Positions 4,234-56,000 of a stretch of 64,000 nucleotides of DNA are shown in pieces (positions within the stretch are counted from its first letter, which is position 1; the number at the start of each line of letters is the position of its first letter). Position numbers and translations under genes: made by a program. This DNA comes from Balneolaceae bacterium (GTDB taxonomy: Bacteria; Bacteroidota; Rhodothermia; Balneolales; Balneolaceae): the NCBI GenBank assembly GCA_017795005.1, contig CP051242.1, forward strand, positions 372,001 to 436,000, given 5' to 3'. Below the pieces are notes generated by a model that had not been told where the DNA came from, ran no database searches, and saw only the letters and a program-made list of their open reading frames with translations.

Positions 4234-4986
4234 CTATTTAGTGTTTTCTATAAGTACGTCGTCTTTATAAAGCTTTTGCTCGATGATATTACCAAGTTCA
4301 TCATACGAAGTCATATATCCCTGGATTCCGGATGAGTCGGCGCTGGATTCGAATTTGAGTTGACCGTTTTGATACCACTCTCTGAAATAGTGCCATTCAT
4401 TTCTTTCAACTACTTCAACATAATAATGCCTCAAAAGCTGATAACCCGGACCAAAATCTTTGTATCCATTATCAAGATTTTCGTGCCGGAAAGATAGGCT
4501 ATCGTTGTTATCAAAACCGGTGGTTGAGCCAAAAAGCCCTCCATCTCTGTAAGTAAAAAGGATGTAGTTAGCATTTCTGCTCTCAATGATTGATTCCTCA
4601 AGAAGTACTGATTTTACAGGCAAGCCTTCTTCATAAATCTCTTTCCAGCCTGCCTCACCAGTCTTACTATTAGTTAATGTGCGATTCCCTGTGAATAGAT
4701 TTCCATTGTCTGTATAATATTTAGGAGCTTTTAAATTGTAAAAAGTACTATTTGAGTCTTCAGTACTATCCATGTTTAACGTATACAAAACCAGATCAGC
4801 TTCATATAAAACCCCATTCATCACCACAGAATCAGCAACGGAATACCCATCCTTTTCAACATTCTGTGAACAAAAAGAAAAGGATAAAATTACCAGGGGT
4901 GTAAGTAAAAAGATTAGATGGATATATTTTGAAAATGATGTTCTTTGGTAGTCCATAACCCTAATATTAATTGAAGTTAAGGACAA
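4234..4986 (-). CDS. YwqK/MORN-like repeat lipoprotein-like protein (orphan copy)
   Basis: The C-terminal part carries the EWYxNGQLKFES ... GYMTSYDELGNIIEQKLYKDDVLIE pattern typical of the YwqK/MORN-variant family. It is a diverged paralog of the five tandem genes at 6786-10228. A hydrophobic segment ends in SFSFCSQ, so it may be a lipoprotein or membrane-anchored. An internal ATG at 4956 (MDYQRTSF) would give a shorter N-terminus and is an alternative start. It lies 9 bp downstream of the lytic transglycosylase gene and is probably cotranscribed with it. Unlike the tandem copies, it lacks the KKRLxMM leader segment. Molecular role is unknown. Confidence 0.75.
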   Translation of the reverse strand: MSLTSINIRVMDYQRTSFSKYIHLIFLLTPLVILSFSFCSQNVEKDGYSVADSVVMNGVLYEADLVLYTLNMDSTEDSNSTFYNLKAPKYYTDNGNLFTGNRTLTNSKTGEAGWKEIYEEGLPVKSVLLEESIIESRNANYILFTYRDGGLFGSTTGFDNNDSLSFRHENLDNGYKDFGPGYQLLRHYYVEVVERNEWHYFREWYQNGQLKFESSADSSGIQGYMTSYDELGNIIEQKLYKDDVLIENTK

Positions 4987-4995
4987 TAGTAAATG

Positions 4996-5769
4996 TCAGT
5001 CAGCTTTCAAAATCCCTTCCGCCTCCTTAGCCAATCCAAGAACAGCCTCTCTGTAAAGCGTACTGTTGTTGTATCGGAGAATAGCATCTTCAGTTGATCC
5101 GGTAATATCTTTGAAGTGAGCCAGATATTTACCAACAGAGTAAATATTGCTGGGCATATCGTATAAGTTATCACCGACCCACCAACGGTTCAACGAATAA
5201 GGAATAAACTGTGCATAAGACATCGCGCCTGCATAACTCGATTTAAGCTCTAATACATCCAGATTATTTTTTTTGGTGAACTTGAGGAGCTCTTCCAATT
5301 GAGCAAGCGCAAACTTGGCTCTGTAATTAACCACATACATCGATACATAGGCTTCAAAAGGATTATACCGCCCGGCGTAAGTCCCAAATTCGGATTCCAC
5401 CCCAATGATCCCGACAATCACTTCTTTTGGGATACCATATTCTTGCTCCGCAATTTCCAGTTCATCAGAATAGGTGGTAACGAAGTCATTGAGTTTGGAG
5501 ACTTTTTTGTCGTACCCAAGTACTTTTTTGTAATCCTCAACATCTTCAATCACACGTTCAGCGGCGCGCACGAATTTATCTTTTATATCCGGCATTAATT
5601 CAAAGCGGTCGTCTTCCAGAATAGGGCGGATATCAACTCCCTTTTTGTCAAAGTGGTCAATGAGTTTTTGAAGATTTTCTTCGGTTTCCGGAGAAAAAGT
5701 ATGTGCAATTGAAGTGTTGACGAATATCAACGTGCAAACCAGGATAGATAAAAAAGAAATTCTGTACAT
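4996..5769 (-). CDS. mltB: Lytic murein transglycosylase, MltB/SLT_2 family
   Basis: This enzyme cleaves peptidoglycan between MurNAc and GlcNAc with formation of 1,6-anhydroMurNAc (family knowledge). The 257-residue protein has a Sec signal (MYRISFLSILVCTLIFVNTSIA). The catalytic region is EYGIPKEVIVGIIGVESEFG, in which the Glu of VESEFG is the expected acid/base, followed by the substrate-groove motif GAMSYAQFIPYSLNRW. It is shorter than E. coli MltB and has no lipobox, so it is probably periplasmic and soluble. It precedes a YwqK-like gene by 9 bp. Confidence 0.88.
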   Translation of the reverse strand: MYRISFLSILVCTLIFVNTSIAHTFSPETEENLQKLIDHFDKKGVDIRPILEDDRFELMPDIKDKFVRAAERVIEDVEDYKKVLGYDKKVSKLNDFVTTYSDELEIAEQEYGIPKEVIVGIIGVESEFGTYAGRYNPFEAYVSMYVVNYRAKFALAQLEELLKFTKKNNLDVLELKSSYAGAMSYAQFIPYSLNRWWVGDNLYDMPSNIYSVGKYLAHFKDITGSTEDAILRYNNSTLYREAVLGLAKEAEGILKAD

Positions 5770-6785: not shown

Positions 6786-7451
6786 CTACTTTATCTTTTC
6801 TATGAGTTCTCCATCTTCGTACCGCTCCTGCTCAACAACATTTCCGCTGTTATTATAGAGCGTCATTAGACCCTGAGTACCCTTTTCATCAGAAGTTGAC
6901 TGAAATTTAAGCTGTCCGTTTGGATGCCACTCTCGATAAAGTTGTTTACCATCATGATCAGGAGATGAGTCAATAAGCTCAGATGTGAGCACTCCAAGAT
7001 CGTATCCCCGAAAGGCAATTCGTTTTTTCTTTTCAAAATCATACTCTATTTCCGTTCGGTACCATTCTTCACCAGTTCTTTTGAAGGTTTGTTCTTTAAC
7101 TCTCAGACCTTCCTTGAAAGTAACAGAAGTAAGAAGCTTGTCATCTGATTTGAAATAATGACTCTGAACCCCGGAAAATAATACCCCATCCATATCATAC
7201 ATTCTTGAATCATAAAAAATGCCGCTATCCTGAACCTGCTCATAAGGAGATGAAATCAATTGAAGGCGAACATTCGAGTAAAGTTCATTAGGATTGTCGG
7301 GTTTACTACAGAAAATAAATGTGATGAACAGAAACATTGGGAGAAGAGGCAGAAGCCGAATAATCCTTCCAGCCAAAGACCGGTTCTTATTCAATAATAC
7401 AAGACGCTTTTTGGTAAGCTTAAAATCAATATGACTGGTGAATCGGTTCAT
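6786..7451 (-). CDS. Tandem YwqK/MORN-like membrane protein, copy 5
   Basis: Last of five tandem paralogs, 221 residues. The N-terminus MNRFTSHIDFKLTKKRL is followed by a basic stretch and one hydrophobic segment ending in FITFIFCSK. Then comes a soluble region ending YREWHPNGQLKFQS ... LMTLYNNSGNVVEQERYEDGELIEKIK. The repeat pattern (E-W-x-x-N-G-Q-L-K-F) is of the YwqK/MORN-variant type. Its ATG overlaps the stop of the preceding copy as ATGA at 7448-7451, indicating translational coupling. The Cys after the hydrophobic segment resembles a lipobox, but about 50 residues precede it, so a transmembrane anchor is as likely. Function unknown. Confidence 0.8.
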   Translation of the reverse strand: MNRFTSHIDFKLTKKRLVLLNKNRSLAGRIIRLLPLLPMFLFITFIFCSKPDNPNELYSNVRLQLISSPYEQVQDSGIFYDSRMYDMDGVLFSGVQSHYFKSDDKLLTSVTFKEGLRVKEQTFKRTGEEWYRTEIEYDFEKKKRIAFRGYDLGVLTSELIDSSPDHDGKQLYREWHPNGQLKFQSTSDEKGTQGLMTLYNNSGNVVEQERYEDGELIEKIK

Positions 7452-8173
7452 TTTATTTTTTCCACCAGCTCCAAACCTTCATAGCGCTCATGGAAAGTAA
7501 CAGTCCCATTTTTATCATATCTAATTACTTCCCCATAGGTGATATTAGGATCCCTTTTATCGAGGATGGAGAGCATTTCCAGATAACCTCTTTCATTCCA
7601 ATGCTTAAATACCATTGCGCCATTATGAGATGGAGAAGAATAGATAGTTTCCAGACTGAGTTTACTATATTGATAATAACGTGTGGAGATAAGCTTCTTT
7701 TTTTGAGGATTATAGAAATAATCTAAAGAAGAAGACTCAGTTCCTTCAGAATCAAAATACTTCGCATGAACTATTAAACCATCTACATAAATACTGGAAT
7801 GTTCTAAAAGGTCTGTGTCTTTTTCATATGTATTTTGAACACCTGTGTAAATTTTCCCATCGAGAAGGGCTAAACGAGGAATATGTTGAAGTATACTAAT
7901 GCTATCCCCAATAAAAGGAATTCGTTGAAACTCAAGATTTACATCAGAATAGCTTAAACTTGCCCAATATTCCTGCCAGTCAATTTCAGTGGGTTCATTG
8001 ACGAGCTCTTTTTGCTCAAAAAACAAAAAGGGACTGAATGCAAAGGCAACCAGAACAGGCAGCGCTTTGAAATATAAACTACTGGCGGAAGTATTCTTGC
8101 CAATCAGGGCTAGTCTCTTCCTGGTTAAAGAGAAGTTTAGTTTGCTGGAAAAGCTACTTGTCCAAATGCTCAT
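7448..8173 (-). CDS. Tandem YwqK/MORN-like membrane protein, copy 4
   Basis: 241 residues. The leader is more diverged (MSIWTSSFSSKLNFSLTRKRL) but keeps the LNFSLTRKRL block, then one hydrophobic segment (LPVLVAFAFSPFLFF) without the Cys found in the other copies. The C-terminus YGEVIRYDKNGTVTFHERYEGLELVEKIK retains the repeat and the shared ELVEKIK ending. It overlaps copy 3 as ATGA at 8170-8173. Loss of the lipobox-like Cys argues that the hydrophobic segment is a transmembrane helix rather than a cleaved lipoprotein signal in this family. Confidence 0.78.
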   Translation of the reverse strand: MSIWTSSFSSKLNFSLTRKRLALIGKNTSASSLYFKALPVLVAFAFSPFLFFEQKELVNEPTEIDWQEYWASLSYSDVNLEFQRIPFIGDSISILQHIPRLALLDGKIYTGVQNTYEKDTDLLEHSSIYVDGLIVHAKYFDSEGTESSSLDYFYNPQKKKLISTRYYQYSKLSLETIYSSPSHNGAMVFKHWNERGYLEMLSILDKRDPNITYGEVIRYDKNGTVTFHERYEGLELVEKIK

Positions 8174-8871
8174 AATATTTCCTTTAAAAGCTCACCGCTA
8201 TCATCATAAAGATGACGCTGGGTTAATTCACCATCTTCATTATACCACGAGATAAGTCCCACAAGAGGGAGTACATTAGAACTATTTTTAATATAACTCC
8301 TGGTTCCTTCATACATTACCTGACCATTTTTATAAAAGAGCTTAAAGGATGCTAGGTGGTCTTCAGAATAGTAATATTCATAATTTTGTTCACCTGTTAC
8401 CTTTTTAAAAAATAGAAAATCTTCTTTGTATTGCATCTCGGCTCTTCTCCTCAAGACCCCCTCCAAGTCATAAGTTTTGCTTAGTATAGGTAAGCCATCT
8501 TGAAAGGTTACCTCCGAATATAACTGATTTGTTACCTCAAAGAACGTTTTTTGAACCCCGGAATACAGTTCTCCATTCTGGTTATAATATGTTCGTTGAT
8601 ACCCAAAAGCGGTAGGCTTCCCAGTAAATTTCAAGGGAACATCATAGTACATATCAGTAAAAGGCGGGGGGAGAGGAGTTAGTTCTGTAATGGTTTCAAA
8701 GTAAATTTCCTCGGGAATAGTCTGAGTACAAAAAATGAAGGAGCAATAAACTAATGCGATACAGCCAATGGTTTTAAAAGAAACAGTTTTGTACAGGTTT
8801 GATAATTTTCCCATCATCTTAAATCTCTTTTTAGTCAAAGAAAAGTTGATATGGCTGGTAAAGCGGTTCAT
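8170..8871 (-). CDS. Tandem YwqK/MORN-like membrane protein, copy 3
   Basis: 233 residues. Leader MNRFTSHINFSLTKKRF, then KMMGK, then a hydrophobic segment (TIGCIALVYCSFIFCT) followed by the extracytoplasmic part. The internal pattern ELYSGVQKTFFE ... FKLFYKNGQVMYEGTR ... ISWYNEDGELTQRHLYDDSGELLKEIL has three YwqK-like repeats. The start overlaps the stop of copy 2 as ATGA at 8868-8871. It is the only copy whose C-terminus is LLKEIL rather than VEKIK. No enzymatic motif is seen. Confidence 0.78.
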   Translation of the reverse strand: MNRFTSHINFSLTKKRFKMMGKLSNLYKTVSFKTIGCIALVYCSFIFCTQTIPEEIYFETITELTPLPPPFTDMYYDVPLKFTGKPTAFGYQRTYYNQNGELYSGVQKTFFEVTNQLYSEVTFQDGLPILSKTYDLEGVLRRRAEMQYKEDFLFFKKVTGEQNYEYYYSEDHLASFKLFYKNGQVMYEGTRSYIKNSSNVLPLVGLISWYNEDGELTQRHLYDDSGELLKEIL

Positions 8872-9542
8872 TTAATCTTCTCCACTAACTCGCCGTCTTT
8901 GTATCGTTCCTGAGTAGAAATATTTCCTTCAGGGTCGTAGAGAGTATATAAGCCCTGATAATTACTCAACTCATCGTAAGCTAGCTCGTATTTAGGGTTT
9001 CCGTTTTTATACCATTCTTTTACATGAGTTAGTTCTTCAGCAGCATTAAAAGTTTTGTGTTGAGTACGCAAAAGTTGGTCATTCTCACCAAACCAGCGAA
9101 AACCGGAATGTTTACCATTGCTATACAAGTATTCAACCTTAGAAAACTGATTTTTGTCATCGTCGTACTCGACTTCCTCGGTTACCAAACCATCCTTAAA
9201 AGTGTGAACCCGACGGAGTTTTTGAGTTTCTTTATTGAACCAGGAAACTTCACCTGTAAGCAATTCGTCATTGACCGTATAAAGCAGTAACCCGGAGCTA
9301 TCTTTTTCTGATGGAAGCAGATACCCGATTTCAATTTCAGCATAAAGCTCTTCATCTCCATTACTAATGAATGTCAACCCGACTTCTTCACTTTCAACAC
9401 AAAACAAAAAAGAAAAGGCTGTAATCAAAGGAATTACAGTAAAAGAACGAATGCTGTTATTAAGCCAGGATTGACTTTTTCGCATCATCAAAAACCTTTT
9501 TTGAGCCAAAGAAAAGTTGATATGGCTGGTAAAGCGATTCAT
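8868..9542 (-). CDS. Tandem YwqK/MORN-like membrane protein, copy 2
   Basis: 224 residues, the closest relative of copy 1 (shared SNGDEELYAEIEIGY / TDDNPELYADIELGF, ELLTGEVSWF / QLFTGSISWF and YKDGELVEK blocks). Leader MNRFTSHINFSLAQKRF, LMMRK, one hydrophobic segment ending SFLFCVES. It overlaps copy 1 as ATGA at 9539-9542. The high similarity between copies 1 and 2 suggests a recent duplication within the array. The role is unknown; in other genomes annotated relatives are called 'toxin-antitoxin system YwqK family antitoxin', a label I would not take literally here. Confidence 0.78.
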   Translation of the reverse strand: MNRFTSHINFSLAQKRFLMMRKSQSWLNNSIRSFTVIPLITAFSFLFCVESEEVGLTFISNGDEELYAEIEIGYLLPSEKDSSGLLLYTVNDELLTGEVSWFNKETQKLRRVHTFKDGLVTEEVEYDDDKNQFSKVEYLYSNGKHSGFRWFGENDQLLRTQHKTFNAAEELTHVKEWYKNGNPKYELAYDELSNYQGLYTLYDPEGNISTQERYKDGELVEKIK

Positions 9543-10228
9543 TTTAGTTTCTCCACTAACTCGCCGTCTTTGTATCGCTCTTGTTCAAGAATCTTACCTT
9601 GTTTATCGTACAGGGTCATTAATCCCTGATACAATAAAGGCTTCTCATCTTTTCCTTCCGACATAAATCCCTCAAACTTGAGCTGACCATTTGGGTGCCA
9701 TTCTCTTATCATTGAGAGACTATCTCCAGGAACTGGAGTGCCAAGCCAATCTCTCAAAATTTGATCGTTCGCATCATAATGCCTGAATCCTGCACGAATG
9801 CCATCCTCAAAAACATGTTCAATTCTGAAGATTTGATTCCCATTTTTATCGTATTCAATTCCTTCAACCTGGAGACCGTTTTCGAAAATCGCTTTTCTGA
9901 CTAATCGATCATTGTCTTCTCTAAACCATGAGATGGAGCCAGTAAAGAGCTGATTATCTGTTGTGTAGTATAATAGTTCAGAGGTCTTTTCATCAGAGGG
10001 AAATTTAAATCCTAATTCAATATCTGCATATAATTCCGGGTTATCATCCGTAATTAAAATCAAGTCACCGGAATCATGTCTTACGCAAGACAGAAATACA
10101 AACAGTGCAATAGCTGGTAGAAAAGAAAGTAATCGAAGGATTTTATTAAACCGGGATTGATATTTTCCCATCATAAAAAGTCGCTTTCTTGTGAGAGAGA
10201 AATTAATATGGCTGGTAAACCGATTCAC
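9539..10228 (-). CDS. Tandem YwqK/MORN-like membrane protein, copy 1
   Basis: 229 residues. It starts with GTG at 10226-10228, overlapping the TGA of the M56 gene (GTGA). Leader MNRFTSHINFSLTRKRL, FMMGK, a basic loop, then the hydrophobic segment LLSFLPAIALFVFLSC. The soluble part ends IREWHPNGQLKFEGF ... QGLMTLYDKQGKILEQERYKDGELVEKLK. From family knowledge, the block 'F.YSLTKKRLxMM' plus a transmembrane helix directly follows the peptidase domain in many fused Bacteroidota M56 proteins, so this gene looks like the detached tail of the upstream protein. Confidence 0.8.
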   Translation of the reverse strand: MNRFTSHINFSLTRKRLFMMGKYQSRFNKILRLLSFLPAIALFVFLSCVRHDSGDLILITDDNPELYADIELGFKFPSDEKTSELLYYTTDNQLFTGSISWFREDNDRLVRKAIFENGLQVEGIEYDKNGNQIFRIEHVFEDGIRAGFRHYDANDQILRDWLGTPVPGDSLSMIREWHPNGQLKFEGFMSEGKDEKPLLYQGLMTLYDKQGKILEQERYKDGELVEKLK

Positions 10229-11040
10229 TTGATCTTCTCCGTTTGTTTATCAGTGGAAACAAATTCCAATAAAACAGACTGGTAATCGGATACGCTTTCA
10301 GAAACAGTAACAGCACCCTCATCCGCTAAAAACTCATGATTCAACTGAATAGAATGCTTGTAGAAATACAATACAGGGTTAAACCAGAAGATGGTTTTTA
10401 CAAACTCAACCAAAAGAACATCCAGTGAGTGTTTTTGGCGTATATGAGTGAGTTCATGCTCCAGTATTTCCGGGGCGATTTTACCGGACTCAAAATCCTT
10501 TTTATTCAGAAAAATCCACTTGAAAAAAGACTGTGGGGTAACAGGCTCATCAAGTAAAACCAATGTGGATGTTTTAAATGAACTTTTGGTGCCCTTTCTG
10601 ACTTTCGAAAACAGCTCAAAAAGTCCGGAACCAAATCGAATCAAAAAGAAAAGTGTAATAAACAGGTAGATACCTGCAATTATTTCTTTTCTGGAGAACC
10701 TGGGCTCCTCGGGTACAATGGGAGAATTAGATTCGCTAACGGCTTCATCAACTTCAGCTGCGGGTGTAGAGGGCGGACTGGTTATAACCGGCTCAATAGT
10801 TCTTGCAACAAACTCAGAGGGAGCATTTATGGTCGACTCCACTTTATGTAACTCTACCCCGGCAATTTTTGTGTCCGGACTGATATCAATCTGAATGAGA
10901 GGGGCTGTTAATCCCAACCCGAGAGCGATCAGCAAAAAGACCCGGTTAAAGGAGTGCATCTTTTCATTTTCGAGAAAAAGCTTGTACAATCCTAAAAGGA
11001 TCGCCAACAGAATAGTAGACTTTACGAGATAGATGATCAT
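10225..11040 (-). CDS. BlaR1/MecR1-type M56 membrane peptidase (short, no sensor tail)
   Basis: 271 residues. N-terminal transmembrane helices (MIIYLVKSTILLAILLGLYKLFL; VFLLIALGLGLTAPLIQI), a Pro/Glu-rich loop, a third helix near residue 125, then the zinc peptidase core with HELTHIRQKHS (HExxH) and a second conserved block HEFLADEGAV carrying the third ligand Glu. In the BlaR1 family this cytoplasm-facing peptidase is activated by an external signal and removes the cognate repressor. This protein stops at TEKIK about 30 residues after HEFLADEGAV and lacks the usual extracellular sensor. It overlaps the BlaI gene as ATGA and the first YwqK paralog as GTGA. Confidence 0.88.
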   Translation of the reverse strand: MIIYLVKSTILLAILLGLYKLFLENEKMHSFNRVFLLIALGLGLTAPLIQIDISPDTKIAGVELHKVESTINAPSEFVARTIEPVITSPPSTPAAEVDEAVSESNSPIVPEEPRFSRKEIIAGIYLFITLFFLIRFGSGLFELFSKVRKGTKSSFKTSTLVLLDEPVTPQSFFKWIFLNKKDFESGKIAPEILEHELTHIRQKHSLDVLLVEFVKTIFWFNPVLYFYKHSIQLNHEFLADEGAVTVSESVSDYQSVLLEFVSTDKQTEKIK

Positions 11041-11408
11041 GATTTCTTCCTCTCAAGTTCTTTTTCTACAATGGACTTCAGCTCTTCAAGTTCAGATGCG
11101 GAAAGGTTGGTTTCTGATGTGAAGAACGAAGCAAACTGAGCGGAAGAATTATTGAAGAACTTCTTTATCAACCCATTTACGTGCTTCGAGAAGTAATCGG
11201 TTTTCTTAACCAGGGGAAAATACTCTCTTGACCGACCATGTTGGTTATAATCCACAAAACCTTTTTCCTGCATACGTTTCAATAGCGTTGCGATTGTGGT
11301 TGGAGCCGGTTTCGGCTCAGGATATTCTTCCAACAAATCTCCCATATACGCTTTTTCAAGCTTCCAGAGATGCTGCATTAATTCTTCTTCTGTTTGAGAC
11401 AATGACAT
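11037..11408 (-). CDS. BlaI/MecI/CopY-family transcriptional repressor
   Basis: 123-residue winged-helix repressor. The N-terminal domain has MSLSQTEEELMQHLWKLEKAYMGDLLEEYPEPKPAPTTIATLLKRMQEKGFV with the BlaI-type recognition helix (TTIATLLKRMQEKGF), and the C-terminal helices (SASELEELKSIVEKELERK) would form the dimer. The family is inactivated by proteolysis by the partner M56 peptidase, which is encoded directly downstream with a 4-nt overlap. Two TTCTAn(6)TAGAA palindromes lie immediately upstream of the start codon, so autorepression of the whole operon is likely. Confidence 0.92.
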   Translation of the reverse strand: MSLSQTEEELMQHLWKLEKAYMGDLLEEYPEPKPAPTTIATLLKRMQEKGFVDYNQHGRSREYFPLVKKTDYFSKHVNGLIKKFFNNSSAQFASFFTSETNLSASELEELKSIVEKELERKKS

Positions 11409-11409
11409 A

Positions 11410-11445
11410 TTCTACGTGTTTAGAATTGTTTCTACAATTGTAGAA
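11410..11445 (-). promoter_or_regulatory. Predicted tandem BlaI-type operators
   Basis: TTCTACAATTGTAGAA (11430-11445) is a perfect 16-bp palindrome containing TACAnnTGTA, the core of known BlaI/MecI operators. An imperfect second site, TTCTACGTGTTTAGAA, is at 11410-11425. Centres are 20 bp apart (about two helical turns) and the second site is 1 bp from the blaI-like start codon, so binding would block transcription or translation start. Confidence 0.7.
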
Positions 11446-11478
11446 GAAAAAATTCTAACATGCAACACTCTTTTAAAA

Positions 11479-11621
11479 GTCATCCCTGCCTGTCCGCCGT
11501 ACTTGTACTTTGGAAGGCGGGCGAAGGCAGGGATCTGGAGTTTCTTAAAGACTCTATTTCCATATTCATTGCTCTGGATTCCCGCCCTGTCTGCCGAACA
11601 GGCAGGCTTCGCGGGAATGAC
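11479..11621. repeat. Long imperfect inverted repeat in intergenic region
   Basis: The outer ends are GTCATCCCTGCCTGTCCGCC and its inverted counterpart ending in GCGGGAATGAC, with internal GGCAGG/CCTGCC blocks (for example CTGCCGAACAGGCAG) able to form stacked hairpins. The 11409-12045 gap also holds the repeats at 11656 and 11737. I see no gene in this 637-bp stretch; the short open frame there lies wholly in repeats. Confidence 0.7.
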
Positions 11622-11655
11622 CAGGAGTGAGTAAATGCATGAAAACCTCGATCCA

Positions 11656-32145: not shown

Positions 32146-33741
32146 ATGCTATCTAAAGAATTAAAATCAAAAATTGACAGCCTATGGGATAAATTCTGGT
32201 CCCGGGGTATGGCAAATCCATTAACAGCCATTGAACAAATCTCCTATCTCTTATTTATGAGAAGACTTGATCAAATGGATGCAGATGAAACTAAAAGAGC
32301 TTCTGGTGATGAATACCAATCAATTTTTGAGGGTACCTGGGATACTGGAGAGAAAGATACTGAGGGCAAAAAAAATGTATTGATCCATAAAGAGGAGCTG
32401 AGATGGACTGTATTCAAAGAATATGAAACCGAACAAAAGCTAAAGCATGTAACTCAATATGTATTTCCATTTCTCAAGGAGTTAAACGATGAGAACTCTC
32501 CATATGCACGTCATATGAAGTCTGCAAATTTCTTCATGCCCAGCGCTTTGTTGTTAGAAGATGCGATGCTGGCTATTGATGATATCTTTGATTACATCGA
32601 ACAAGAAAAAAAAGACGGACAGGTATTTCAGGACACACAAGGAGACGTATATGAATATCTACTGAGTGAATTAAAGAACGCAGGCAAGAATGGTCAGTTT
32701 AGAACTCCAAGGCATTTAATTCGCTTTTTGGTTGAAATATTAGACCCTGATTTAGGGGATAAAATTTGTGATCCAGCTGCGGGTACTGGTGGTTTTTTAG
32801 TAGCTGCTTACCAACATATTTTAGCCAAACATTCTTCTGATGAGAAAAGACTAAAAGATGATAATGGATTCTTTAATGGTTTAGGGGATCAAATAAAAGA
32901 CGAAAAATTTTGGGATCAGCTGAAGAAGGAAACCTTTTATGGGTACGACATTGATTCAGGGATGGTTCGAATTGGCTTGATGAATCTGATGCTTCATGGT
33001 ATAACTTATCCACACATTGAGAATCTTGATACCCTTTCAAAGAGGTATGATGAGAGCCATCAAGAGGGAGAGTTTTCGGTGGTATTAGCGAATCCTCCTT
33101 TTACCGGTAAGATTTCGAAGAATGATAAAAGCGATGAGTTTAGAATTTCTTCAAATTCAACGGAGTTACTTTTCTTGGAAAGAATTATGAAAATGCTTCG
33201 ACCAGGTGGAAAGGGTGGAGTAATTATTCCAGAGGGGGTATTGTTTGGTTCATCCAAAGCGAATAAACAACTTCGGGAAATATTGGTTAAGGATTGCCAA
33301 TTGGAAGCTGTGATATCTCTCCCAAGCGGGGTTTTTAAACCCTATACCGGAGTTAAAACGGCTATGTTGGTATTTACTAAAGAGCAACAGGATTCTAATG
33401 AGTTTCATACCGAAAGGGTGTGGTTTTATGAATTAGAAAGCGATGGATATTCATTAGATGACAACAGAAGAAGATTGAAGGAAAGCCCATTACCGGAAGC
33501 TGTTTTGGATTGGGAGGAAAGGGGAGAAAAGAGTTCAGAGGTTGATCGAAAAGGTAAGCATTTCTTTGTACCGTTAGAAGAAATTCAAGAAAACGAGTAC
33601 GACTTAAGTATTAATCGATACAAGGAATTTGTGTATGAAGAACAAGAATATGACCCGCCGAAAAAGATTTTAGAAGCTCTAGTGAGTCTCGAAAACGAAA
33701 TTTTGAGTGATATGGAGGAGTTAAAAGGCTTGTTTGGATGA
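32146..33741 (+). CDS. hsdM: Type I restriction-modification methyltransferase subunit (HsdM)
   Basis: N6-adenine methyltransferase subunit working with HsdS. 531 residues. The N-terminal helical domain (KIDSLWDKFWSRGMANPLTAIEQISYLLFMRRLDQMD) is followed by the N6_Mtase domain with the SAM motif DPAAGTGGF near residue 209, NGLGDQ and YGYDIDSGMVRIG, and the catalytic motif NPPF near residue 316. Both motifs are intact. The stop overlaps the hsdS start as ATGA (33738-33741). It is the first gene of a four-gene operon that has no hsdR. It is clearly distinct from the HsdM at 48330. Confidence 0.95.
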   Translation: MLSKELKSKIDSLWDKFWSRGMANPLTAIEQISYLLFMRRLDQMDADETKRASGDEYQSIFEGTWDTGEKDTEGKKNVLIHKEELRWTVFKEYETEQKLKHVTQYVFPFLKELNDENSPYARHMKSANFFMPSALLLEDAMLAIDDIFDYIEQEKKDGQVFQDTQGDVYEYLLSELKNAGKNGQFRTPRHLIRFLVEILDPDLGDKICDPAAGTGGFLVAAYQHILAKHSSDEKRLKDDNGFFNGLGDQIKDEKFWDQLKKETFYGYDIDSGMVRIGLMNLMLHGITYPHIENLDTLSKRYDESHQEGEFSVVLANPPFTGKISKNDKSDEFRISSNSTELLFLERIMKMLRPGGKGGVIIPEGVLFGSSKANKQLREILVKDCQLEAVISLPSGVFKPYTGVKTAMLVFTKEQQDSNEFHTERVWFYELESDGYSLDDNRRRLKESPLPEAVLDWEERGEKSSEVDRKGKHFFVPLEEIQENEYDLSINRYKEFVYEEQEYDPPKKILEALVSLENEILSDMEELKGLFG

Positions 33742-35219
33742 GAATTAGTAATGTTATATCAAGAAAAATTTCAGGTGAATGGGGTAAGGAGGCAACATCA
33801 GACGATGCTGTTTTTGTAATTCGTACTGCGAATTTTAGAAATGACGGAAAAATTCAATTCGATAATTTGGTTAAAAGGGACGTTGATCAAAAAAAGGTTT
33901 CCAAAAAACGACTTATTGATGGAGATATAATTATAGAAAAGTCAGGAGGGAGCCCTAAACAACCAGTCGGTAGAGTTGTATATTTTGAACAACCTTTTAA
34001 AGGAACATTTCTTTGTAATAATTTTACTAGTGTTCTTAGACCAGGACCTTCTATAGTTCCTAAGTATTTGTTCTACCACTTATCCTATAACTATTTAATT
34101 GGTAAAACTAGGTCTTATCAAAATAAGACAACTGGTATCATCAATTTAAAGTTAGATCGGTACTTAAAAGAAGAGCTTTATGTACCCGATCTCCAAACAC
34201 AACAACAGATCGTAGAAGCTTTAGATAGAGCTCAATCTCTTATTGAAAAGAGAGAAAAAAGCATTGAATTACTTGATGAATCACTCAGGGCAACTTTTTT
34301 GGATTTGTTTGGGGATCCATATATAAATGAGAAAAATTGGGAAGAACTTATAGTTGGTGATGTTGTTGAGAGAATAGAGGCTGGCTGGAGTGTTGCTGGG
34401 GAAAAGAGGCCAAAAGTAGCCGATGAGTTTGGCGTTTTAAAAGTTAGCGCAGTTACAAGTGGTCGGTTTAAGGCAGAAGAACATAAAGCGGTAGATAGAA
34501 CTAAAATTAAAAAGAAGCTGGTAGTACCTGAAAAAGGGGATGTTCTTTTCTCCAGAGCGAACACAATGGAGTTAGTTGCTGCTACTTGTATTGTCGATGA
34601 AACTGATGAGAAATTATTTTTACCGGATAAGCTATGGAAGATTCATCTAAAAGAAGAGAATATTACTCCTGAATACTTTGTTAGGGTTCTTAAATCCCCT
34701 TCATACCGAAGAAATTTGGCTTTAAAAGCTACTGGCTCGAGTGGTTCAATGTTAAATATTTCCCAAAAGAAACTTCTTTCTTATCAATTCCCAAAACCTC
34801 CAATAAAACTTCAAAAAGAATACTCTAATATCTATAGAGCTTTAGAAAATCACAGAAAAAAGCTAATCCAATTTTTAAAACAAACCGAGTTATTGTTTCA
34901 ATCTCTTTTACAAAGAGCCTTTCATGGAGATTTAACATTTCAATCAGAGTTGCAGTTAGATGCGTTAATTGAAAATTACGATGTTGAAGCCATTACTAAA
35001 GATGGCTCACTCATTCAGGAGTTAGTGGATCGGTTTAATCAACACAATCAAAAAGAAGAGTTTATAGAATCTGATAATGGAACTGGAGACTTTTTTTCAT
35101 TACATAGTTTTGAAGAATATGAGAGCGCCAAAGAGCTTATATTTAAGCTTATGAAATCGGATAAGGTTGAGCAGAGATATGATCAAGAGAAGAAGCAAAC
35201 AATTCTACAGATGAAATGA
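33738..35219 (+). CDS. hsdS: Type I specificity subunit (HsdS) with C-terminal extension
   Basis: 493 residues with two target-recognition domains. TRD1 covers about residues 1-150, followed by the helical spacer LQTQQQIVEALDRAQSLIEKREKSIELLDESLRATFLDLFGDP. TRD2 covers about 200-360, followed by a second helix ending FQSLLQRAFHGDLTF near residue 400. A further roughly 90 residues (QLDALIENYD ... KVEQRYDQEKKQTILQMK) extend beyond a canonical HsdS and could dock the downstream ATPase or nuclease (inference). It overlaps hsdM and the ATPase gene by 4 nt each (ATGA). Confidence 0.92.
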   Translation: MRISNVISRKISGEWGKEATSDDAVFVIRTANFRNDGKIQFDNLVKRDVDQKKVSKKRLIDGDIIIEKSGGSPKQPVGRVVYFEQPFKGTFLCNNFTSVLRPGPSIVPKYLFYHLSYNYLIGKTRSYQNKTTGIINLKLDRYLKEELYVPDLQTQQQIVEALDRAQSLIEKREKSIELLDESLRATFLDLFGDPYINEKNWEELIVGDVVERIEAGWSVAGEKRPKVADEFGVLKVSAVTSGRFKAEEHKAVDRTKIKKKLVVPEKGDVLFSRANTMELVAATCIVDETDEKLFLPDKLWKIHLKEENITPEYFVRVLKSPSYRRNLALKATGSSGSMLNISQKKLLSYQFPKPPIKLQKEYSNIYRALENHRKKLIQFLKQTELLFQSLLQRAFHGDLTFQSELQLDALIENYDVEAITKDGSLIQELVDRFNQHNQKEEFIESDNGTGDFFSLHSFEEYESAKELIFKLMKSDKVEQRYDQEKKQTILQMK

Positions 35220-53009: not shown

Positions 53010-56000
53010 ATGAAATTTACAGAAGCCAGATTAGAAGAAGCGATCGTTACCCTCCTGGAGGAGCAGGGATATACGCACTATACCGGGGAACAGATCAAAC
53101 GGTCCCCGGAGGAAGTTTTAATCACCGCCGACCTGAAGAGCTATTTATTTAAGCGCTACAAGCGGGATGAGATCACAGAAGGAGAAGTAGAACAGATCAT
53201 TCGTGATCTTGAACGGCTCCCCTCCTCAGATCTCTACGAGAGCAATAAGAAATTTATGAAGAAGCTCTCAGATGGCTTCTATCTAAAGAGGGAGGATCGG
53301 AGTAAGAAAGATTTATATATCCAGCTGATTGATTTTAGTGAAATGGCTAATAATCATTTCAGGATTGTTAATCAGCTCGAGATTATTGGCTACGAGAAAC
53401 GTATTCCAGACGCTATCATCTACATCAATGGCTTGCCGGTGGTAGTATTTGAGTTTAAGAGTGCGGTACGGGAAAATGCAACTATTCATGATGCATACAT
53501 TCAGTTAACAGTTCGTTATAAACGGGATATTCCGGATCTGTTCAAATACAATGCGATTGTGGTCATCAGTGACGGAGCCAATAATAAAGCGGGTTCGTTC
53601 TTTGCTCCGTACGAGTTTTTATATGCCTGGCGAAGAGTGGAAGGTCAGATCAAAGAGGTAGATGGAATAGAGTCGCTTTATACTATGTTACAGGGAATGT
53701 TTGATCAGTACCGGCTAAGTGACATTATTCACAATTTTATTTTTCTGCCTGATAGTTCAAAGAAAGAGACGAAGATTGTGTGCCGATATCCTCAATATTA
53801 TGCGGCAAGAGCATTGTTCCGGAATATCAAAGACCATAGAAAACCGGATGGAGATGGCAAAGGTGGGACGTATTTTGGTGCGACTGGAAGTGGCAAAAGT
53901 TATACCATGTTGTTCCTGACGAGACTTTTGATGAAGAGTCTTCATTTTTCAAGTCCAACCATTGTTTTGATTACTGACCGTACCGATCTTGATGATCAGC
54001 TTTCTGAACAGTTCACGGAGGCAAAAGGCTTTGTTGGAGATGAGAATATCGTAAGTGCGGAGAGCAGGTCTGACCTTAGAGAGAAATTACAAGGCCGGAA
54101 CAGTGGTGGAGTATTTTTAACGACCATACATAAATTTACTGAGGATACTCAGTTACTTACGGAACGAACGAACGTGATTTGTATTTCGGACGAAGCACAT
54201 CGTAGTCAGGTCAATCTGGATCAGAAAGTTCGTGTAACCAAAGACGGGGTTAAGCGAAGCTATGGTTTTGCTAAGTATTTACATGACTCTCTTCCTAACG
54301 CCACCTATGTAGGTTTCACGGGCACACCGATTGATGCTACTATGGATGTATTCGGTGAAGTCGTGGACGCCTATACTATGAATGAGTCGGTACAGGATGA
54401 AATAACGGTTGGTATTGTATATGAAGGACGTGCCGCCAAATTATTACTCGATAATTCAAAGCTTACTGAGATAGAGGAATATTACGATAAATGTGTAATG
54501 GAGGGGTCGAATGAATATCAGGTAGAGGAAAGCAAGAAAGCGACGACCAATATGAACGTGCTTCTCGGTGATCCCGGGCGCCTGGATGCACTGGCTGAGG
54601 ATTTTGTAAAGCATTATGAGGCTCGTATTGAAGAAGGTGCCAGTGTAAAAGGTAAGGCAATGTTTGTGTGTAGTAGTCGGGAAATCGCATATGAGTTTTA
54701 TCAGCGAGTCGTTGCACTAAGACCACAGTGGAAGGAGATAAAAATTGCGGAAGAAGGAGCGGAATTATCAGATCAGGAGAAAAAGCAAATCAAGCCAAGT
54801 GAACGAATCAAAATGATCATGACACGACACCGGGATGATCCGAAAGAACTTTATGACTTGTTGGGGACAAAGGAATACAGAAAAGAATTAGACAGGCAGT
54901 TTAAAAATGAGAAATCAAATTTTAAAATTGCCATTGTAGTAGATATGTGGCTGACAGGTTTTGATGTACCGTTTCTTGATACCATGTACATTGATAAGCC
55001 AATCCGAAAGCATACGCTGATACAGACGATTTCAAGGGTAAATCGTAAATATGAAGGTAAAGAGAAGGGGTTAGTAGTTGATTATATCGGCATCAAGAAA
55101 CAGATGAATCTTGCGCTGGCGCACTACAATAAGAAGGACCGCAAACACATCGAAGATATTAAGCAATCTCTTATTGTGGCCAAAGATCATTTAGAGTTGA
55201 TTGATAAAATCTTCCACAAATTTGATTCAAGTGAATACTTTGATGGCTCTCCCATTCAGCAGCTTCACACACTGAATAAGGCGGTAGAATTTGTTCAGAA
55301 AACCGAAGATCTGGAGAGAAGATTCATGTTCCTGGTCAAGAGGCTAAAAGCTGCTTATGATATCTGCGCTGGTAGTGAGTCTTTTTCACAGTTTGAAAGA
55401 GACAGAATCCATTTTTATCTGGCGGTACGATCTATTTTATACAAATTAACCAAAGGTAATGCTCCCGATACCGCTCAAATGAATGCAAAAGTTCGTGAGA
55501 TGATTCAGGAGGCCATTGAGAGTGAAGGAGTGGAAGAGATCTTTAAACTGGGAGATGAGAGTGAGACAGAGGTAGACTTATTCGATGAGGAATATCTTGC
55601 CAAGCTGGATAAGATCAAGATGCCTAATACCAAAATTAAACTACTTCAAAAACTGCTCGCTAAGGCAATAGAAGACTTCAAGAAGATCAATAAGATCAAG
55701 GGTATTGATTTCACAAAGAGATTAGAGTCATTGGTGAAGCGATATAACGAACGCAAAGAAGAAGATGTCTTAAGAAGTGAGGTGCTCGATGATTTTACTG
55801 AGGAAATTATTGGCTTATACCATGAAATGATCAAAGAACGGGAATCCTTTCAGGAGATGGGAATTGATTTTGAAGAGAAAGCCTTCTACGACATTTTGAA
55901 AGAACTGGCCAGAAAATACGACTTTGAGTACCCGGACGAGAAACTTATTCCATTGTCTAAAGAAGTTAAAGACGTGGTAGATGATAAAGCTAAGTACACC

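Follow-up and report, generated by a model that had tools for sequence, protein, structure and literature searches.

What is to be made of an M56-family protease gene that stops short of the outer half of its relatives, and behind which that half appears to be encoded five times over in separate genes? The question is posed by a locus in a 64,000-nucleotide stretch of DNA (here called the window) from a Balneolaceae bacterium whose genome is a single 3.75-Mb contig. A preliminary description of this stretch, made from its letters alone, took the locus for a split BlaR1-type protein with five tandem copies of its detached tail and attributed the arrangement to gene fission followed by amplification. 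The homology that it proposed has been borne out; the order of events has not.

The blaI-M56-tail operon

The genes blaI, M56 and T1 to T5 form a single operon on the minus strand, with a 4-nt ATGA/GTGA overlap at every junction. The first gene, blaI (11037..11408), encodes a repressor of the Penicillinase_R family (123 aa; PF03965, E 6e-28), and the M56 protease gene (10225..11040) encodes a protein of 271 aa (PF05569, E 2e-13, above the cut-off) that falls in a clade of Balneolaceae M56 proteins. Its zinc-site motifs are intact (HELTH at 195 and NHEFLAD at 234). The chain ends 31 residues past NHEFLAD with NHEFLADEGAVTVSESVSDYQSVLLEFVSTDKQTEKIK and lacks what comes next in its relatives, namely helix alpha9, the membrane segment TM4 and the outer sensor domain. 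Behind it lie the tail genes T1 (9539..10228, with a GTG start), T2 (8868..9542), T3 (8170..8871), T4 (7448..8173) and T5 (6786..7451). The overlap places T1 in the -1 frame, as would suit programmed frameshifting that makes M56-T1 one protein. This explanation is scarcely credible, given that the junctions in relatives vary between -4 and +11 nt and fall in mixed frames, that GGAG/AGGA-like sites precede most starts at the window junctions by about 8-9 nt, and that there is no slippery heptamer at M56-T1.

T1 to T5 are real homologues, as judged by identity and by profile. They share the order of a KRL/KRF segment, a membrane helix and a MORN-like domain; T1, T2, T3 and T5 begin with MNRFTSHI, of which T4 has a variant (the start MNRFTSHINFSLTRKRL...MM quoted in the preliminary description is the N-terminus of T1). 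T1 and T2 share 46% identity, and the five are all recovered, at 1e-60 to 1e-82, by a profile of tails whose seed includes T1-T5 themselves. The MORN_2 domain (PF07661) scores 29.1 bits in T1, just below the curated cut-off of 29.6, and less in T2, T3 and T5; the Pfam search gave no MORN_2 match in T4, and among the window proteins it found no penicillin-binding domain in M56 or the tails. In the AF2 model of T1 (mean pLDDT 86.9), a helix at 10-22, corresponding to alpha9, and a TM helix at 26-48 are followed by a beta meander, the MORN-like sheet at 97-227. This MORN/OspA-like sheet matches OspA, SdgB and MORN proteins at Z 6-9, a range in which chance matches are common. Among operon-borne detached and fused tails, average pairwise identity is 63-64% over residues 4-20, 29-32% in the TM helix and 28% in the MORN part. 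Cys48, at the outer end of TM4 and mostly preceded by Phe, is seen in 83% of detached tails; this is not a normal lipobox.

A sixth tail, T6x (4234..4986, minus strand), lies outside the operon, behind a cyclase gene and a gene for an SLT_2 lytic transglycosylase (4996..5769, minus strand; PF13406, E 8.5e-33). It has diverged and lost the N-terminal KKR segment: the likely ATG start is at 4956, and the tail profile matches from position 11 on (E 3e-36). The SLT_2 gene is a recurring neighbour, found on varying sides of the locus in several genera (window, L033, L035, L037, L038, L040, L044, L142, L145 and L157-L159). This hints at a link to the cell wall, by association only. Elsewhere in the window (32146-56147) are type I restriction genes, HsdM at 32146 and HsdR at 53010, about 20 kb apart, with an AAA ATPase gene at 35216.

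Correspondence with S. aureus BlaR1

In S. aureus BlaR1, a loop formed by residues 271-289 occupies the active site, autocleavage takes place between Ser283 and Phe284, and Arg294 enters the site from the partner chain, on its swapped helix alpha9' (PMC9834060). A search of the PDB with the single M56 sequence (phmmer) found no match; a profile of 18 M56 sequences matches BlaR1 (8exp) weakly, at E 0.005. The profile alignment sets ..klassln..fsltKkRl against ..ILSHSFNgkKSLLKRRL295, and in this register I8 of the tail, just before a conserved Asn, corresponds to Phe284 (P1') and R16 to Arg294 (the KKR segment against KRR294). In an AF2 model of a fused relative (mean pLDDT 86.6), the M56 half matches BlaR1 (8exs/8exq) over residues 1-274 with Z 15; this structural alignment ends before the Arg, so that the register is taken from sequence.

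By this register, the end of the window M56 and the start of the tails would fall near BlaR1 residue 277, that is, within the autocleavage loop. The equivalents of the loop and of Arg294 in alpha9 sit on the separate tails and not on the M56 chain. Each tail has the P4-P1' stretch, an alpha9 that bears the counterpart of Arg294, and TM4; on the outside, a MORN-like sheet stands where BlaR1 has its penicillin sensor. The best explanation would be a BlaR1-type receptor split at its autocleavage loop, in which the M56 chain keeps TM1-3 and the zinc site. The view of the preliminary description, that the tail represents the C-terminal portion which the M56 protein lacks, is thus supported both by this alignment and by fused forms in many relatives.

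R16 is present in all 29 operon-borne detached tails and in all 22 fused ones. P4 is F or L in 29/29 detached tails versus 8/21 fused tails; a tree-aware test of this difference yields about 4:0 (p 0.125), with too few pairs. The five tails found outside a blaI-M56 operon (those of G034, G025, G064 and G107, together with T6x of the window) have predicted products that lack the KKR/Arg segment. Those with no M56 alongside (L149-L152, in G107, G034, G025 and G064) still have open reading frames, their KKR segment having decayed or come to lie outside the predicted product, and two of the four are preceded by blaI remnants, as judged by eye. In L150, L152 and partly L151, the KKR codons persist upstream of the first start codon, and an unusual start would include them. 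Compared with related tails, the tails without M56 give a dN/dS of 0.15-0.31, a value that includes the time before M56 was lost.

Fused and detached tails in the Balneolaceae

Matching M56 proteins occur in named relatives within the Balneolaceae (Gracilimonas, Fodinibius, Rhodohalobacter and Balneola), where they are usually fused to a homologous tail with its KKR-helix segment (open frames of 462-511 aa among the closest). Such fusions answer the objection that the preliminary description had named against its own reading, a lack of fused M56 proteins with a homologous segment. Detached tails within the operon are found in 13 of the examined genomes: five in the window genome (G000), seven in G002, four in G014, three in G011, two each in G005 and G080 (one of the latter truncated), and one each in G012, G023, G032, G076, G077, G078 and G081. 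The layout named in the preliminary description, BlaI and M56 followed by tails, thus recurs in relatives as far as the detached tails are concerned, but the M56 there is mostly fused, and only that of G011 is tail-less like that of the window. Two M56 proteins carry non-MORN tails, that of G080 and that of the same-genus relative G002, where the seven detached tails accompany an M56 whose fused tail is unrelated; these two non-MORN tails have only a short stretch in common. In the clade of G000, G002, G011 and G080, the tail-less M56 may have arisen once or twice. Among 392 genomes of the phylum, no detached tail was found beyond the Balneolaceae at E 1e-9. One candidate outside the family (G298, L194) looks rather like a frameshifted fused M56. 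A frameshift, due to error or decay, is also present in the fused M56-tail gene of a Gracilimonas metagenome bin (L145 4861-6357).

A tree of 56 tails bears on the order of events. (It has no outgroup, which leaves the direction of single changes between fused and detached states unfixed.) T1 and T2 are sisters (support 100/98), while each of T3, T4, T5 and T6x pairs with some G002 tail (90/90 to 100/99). In particular, T5 groups with the G002 tail at L037:6428 (90/90); T4 with the G002 tails at L037:9135 and 9833 and with one G011 tail (100/99 and 99/96); and T3 with L037:8455-9138 of G002 and with the fused G014 tail (96/95), a placement made somewhat doubtful by a long branch. The five window tails do not form a single clade, monophyly being rejected with a delta lnL of 110 (p-AU 1.6e-6). 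Fused and detached tails are intermixed, with at least seven state changes; in G012, for example, the fused tail is placed among detached tails and the detached tail among fused ones. By this phylogeny, T1-T5 are old paralogues, the majority of which have an orthologue in a sister species, and in the course of evolution tails seem to shift between the fused and the detached state.

Fission followed by amplification is consequently not supported as the order of events, since relatives with a fused M56 already bear one to seven detached tails and a common origin of T1-T5 within the genome is rejected; a recent tandem array is likewise rejected on account of the T1/T2 divergence, the tree and the p-AU value. 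Because fused M56-tail genes with detached tails behind them exist in other genera, because G002 combines detached tails with an M56 that bears a non-MORN tail, and because T1-T5 are old and without a single origin, the tails probably became detached and multiplied before the window M56 lost its own.

The array could also be a neutral or decaying by-product of recombination, in which unequal crossing-over multiplies tails and the truncated M56 is non-functional. The strong differences among copies and the frameshifted or truncated relatives (L145, L142 and L153) would fit such a history. It is nonetheless improbable, in view of the intact zinc motifs of M56, an Arg that is invariant in 51 tails, a dN/dS of 0.15 between two closely related detached tails (G032/G077), the retention of orthologues in sister species and the intact operators.

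BlaI operators, proposed mechanism and known systems

Upstream of blaI lies a pair of TACAnnTGTA-type dyads (TACAATTGTA). Operator 1 (11430..11445) is a perfect palindrome, TTCTACAATTGTAGAA, and the sole perfect copy in the genome; operator 2 (11410..11425), TTCTACGTGTTTAGAA, is 20 bp from it. Such a pair, at the same 20-bp spacing, occurs at almost every blaI promoter in the family and consists of TTCTACAwwTGTAGAA and a second, less symmetric dyad. A search of the window genome for a wider BlaI regulon found no other perfect operator and five sites with two mismatches, all inside ORFs. A genome-wide scan detected the operator pair in 43 of 89 genomes, almost always once. As the pair is found only at blaI, the operon seems to be its own main target. 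Two further observations concern these promoters: in G021, a second tandem operator pair (L043 13915-13950) lies upstream of a DUF4837 gene, a possible regulon member, and parts of an intergenic repeat upstream of blaI in the window (11470-11640) are found again at 15 further sites in the genome.

In 22/70 loci of Flavobacterium (e.g. L075:8097-8519), blaI comes directly after a gene for a MORN_2 lipoprotein, and TACATTTGTA stands before the lipoprotein gene in nine of ten such loci scanned, with a second dyad 20-27 bp on. A link between MORN proteins and BlaI-M56 thus exists in two distant groups. This recurrence weighs against the idea of a YwqK-like immunity array in which the tails would be antitoxins to several toxins; likeness to MORN_2/YwqK and the multiple diverged copies speak for it, but no toxin family occurs among the scanned neighbours of the array and the tails bear an M56-specific segment and a TM helix, so that we rate it highly improbable.

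If BlaI controls only its own operon, as it apparently does, the tails could be outputs rather than sensors. They would then be regulated products or substrates: M56 would free the operon from BlaI, and MORN tails would build up in the membrane and shield the envelope, perhaps with their N-termini trimmed by M56. An operator pair restricted to blaI in most genomes leads one to expect the output within the operon; the Flavobacterium lipoprotein that heads blaI-M56, and the open frames kept by M56-less tails, point the same way. This account is nevertheless unlikely, for it leaves unexplained the invariant Arg and substrate-like segment of operon tails, the absence of that segment outside the operon, and the exchange with the fused sensor position.

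Taken together, the data are best explained, and with somewhat better than even confidence, by tails that act as exchangeable sensor subunits, completing and plugging the M56 active site in trans. Any tail would pair with M56 in the membrane; its alpha9 would complete the active site while its N-terminus (P4 F/L ... P1' I/L) fills that site and keeps the protease off. An outside cue, perhaps envelope damage, would shift the tail so that the plug leaves, and the freed M56 would cleave BlaI, derepressing the operon and yielding more M56 and tails. Five diverged tails would then provide several inputs to one protease. We infer binding, plugging, sensing, BlaI cleavage and the identity of the cue from sequence. 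The fuller picture is more tentative, possible rather than probable: one shared M56 core with five competing sensor subunits, each bringing the missing Arg and a removable plug, would pass several outside signals to one repressor, the tails having been swapped between fused and detached forms in evolution. The preliminary suggestion of one protease with several possible membrane partners is the best fit to homology and conservation.

If this is true, a receptor made as a single protein would here have become a common core served by many exchangeable sensors, a change that is rarely seen. In staphylococci, beta-lactam resistance is under the control of BlaR1 receptors, and it is still debated how their external domain governs the internal protease. 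A naturally split receptor, with its break in the autocleavage loop and the swapped helix provided in trans, would open this question to direct test, as the halves could be separately expressed, mutated and mixed.

Among known systems, the BlaR protein of Mycobacterium tuberculosis (Rv1845c) resembles the window M56 in being an M56 protein that is not known to carry a C-terminal sensor domain; it differs in that no detached tail genes are known for it. No description of detached BlaR1 tails or of MORN-BlaI-M56 operons was found in the open-access literature. The Flavobacterium operons (L075) resemble that of the window in joining a MORN_2 protein to BlaI-M56 and in having a similar operator pair; there, however, the first gene encodes the MORN protein, a short lipoprotein that lacks alpha9 and Arg, and M56 keeps its own tail. 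The fused M56-MORN proteins of the Balneolaceae (Fodinibius halophilus, L058; Gracilimonas amylolytica, L059) have a related M56, the same tail family and the operator pair, and several are also accompanied by detached tails, but their M56 keeps a covalent tail and the detached copies number 0-4 rather than 5. Finally, S. aureus BlaR1/BlaI (PDB 8EXP-8EXT; PMC9834060) shares the M56 zinc site, TM topology, autocleavage loop, alpha9 Arg, BlaI-family repressor and dyad operator, whereas in the window the chain is broken within the autocleavage loop, the sensor half is separate and present in multiple copies, and a MORN-like sheet takes the place of the penicillin-binding sensor.
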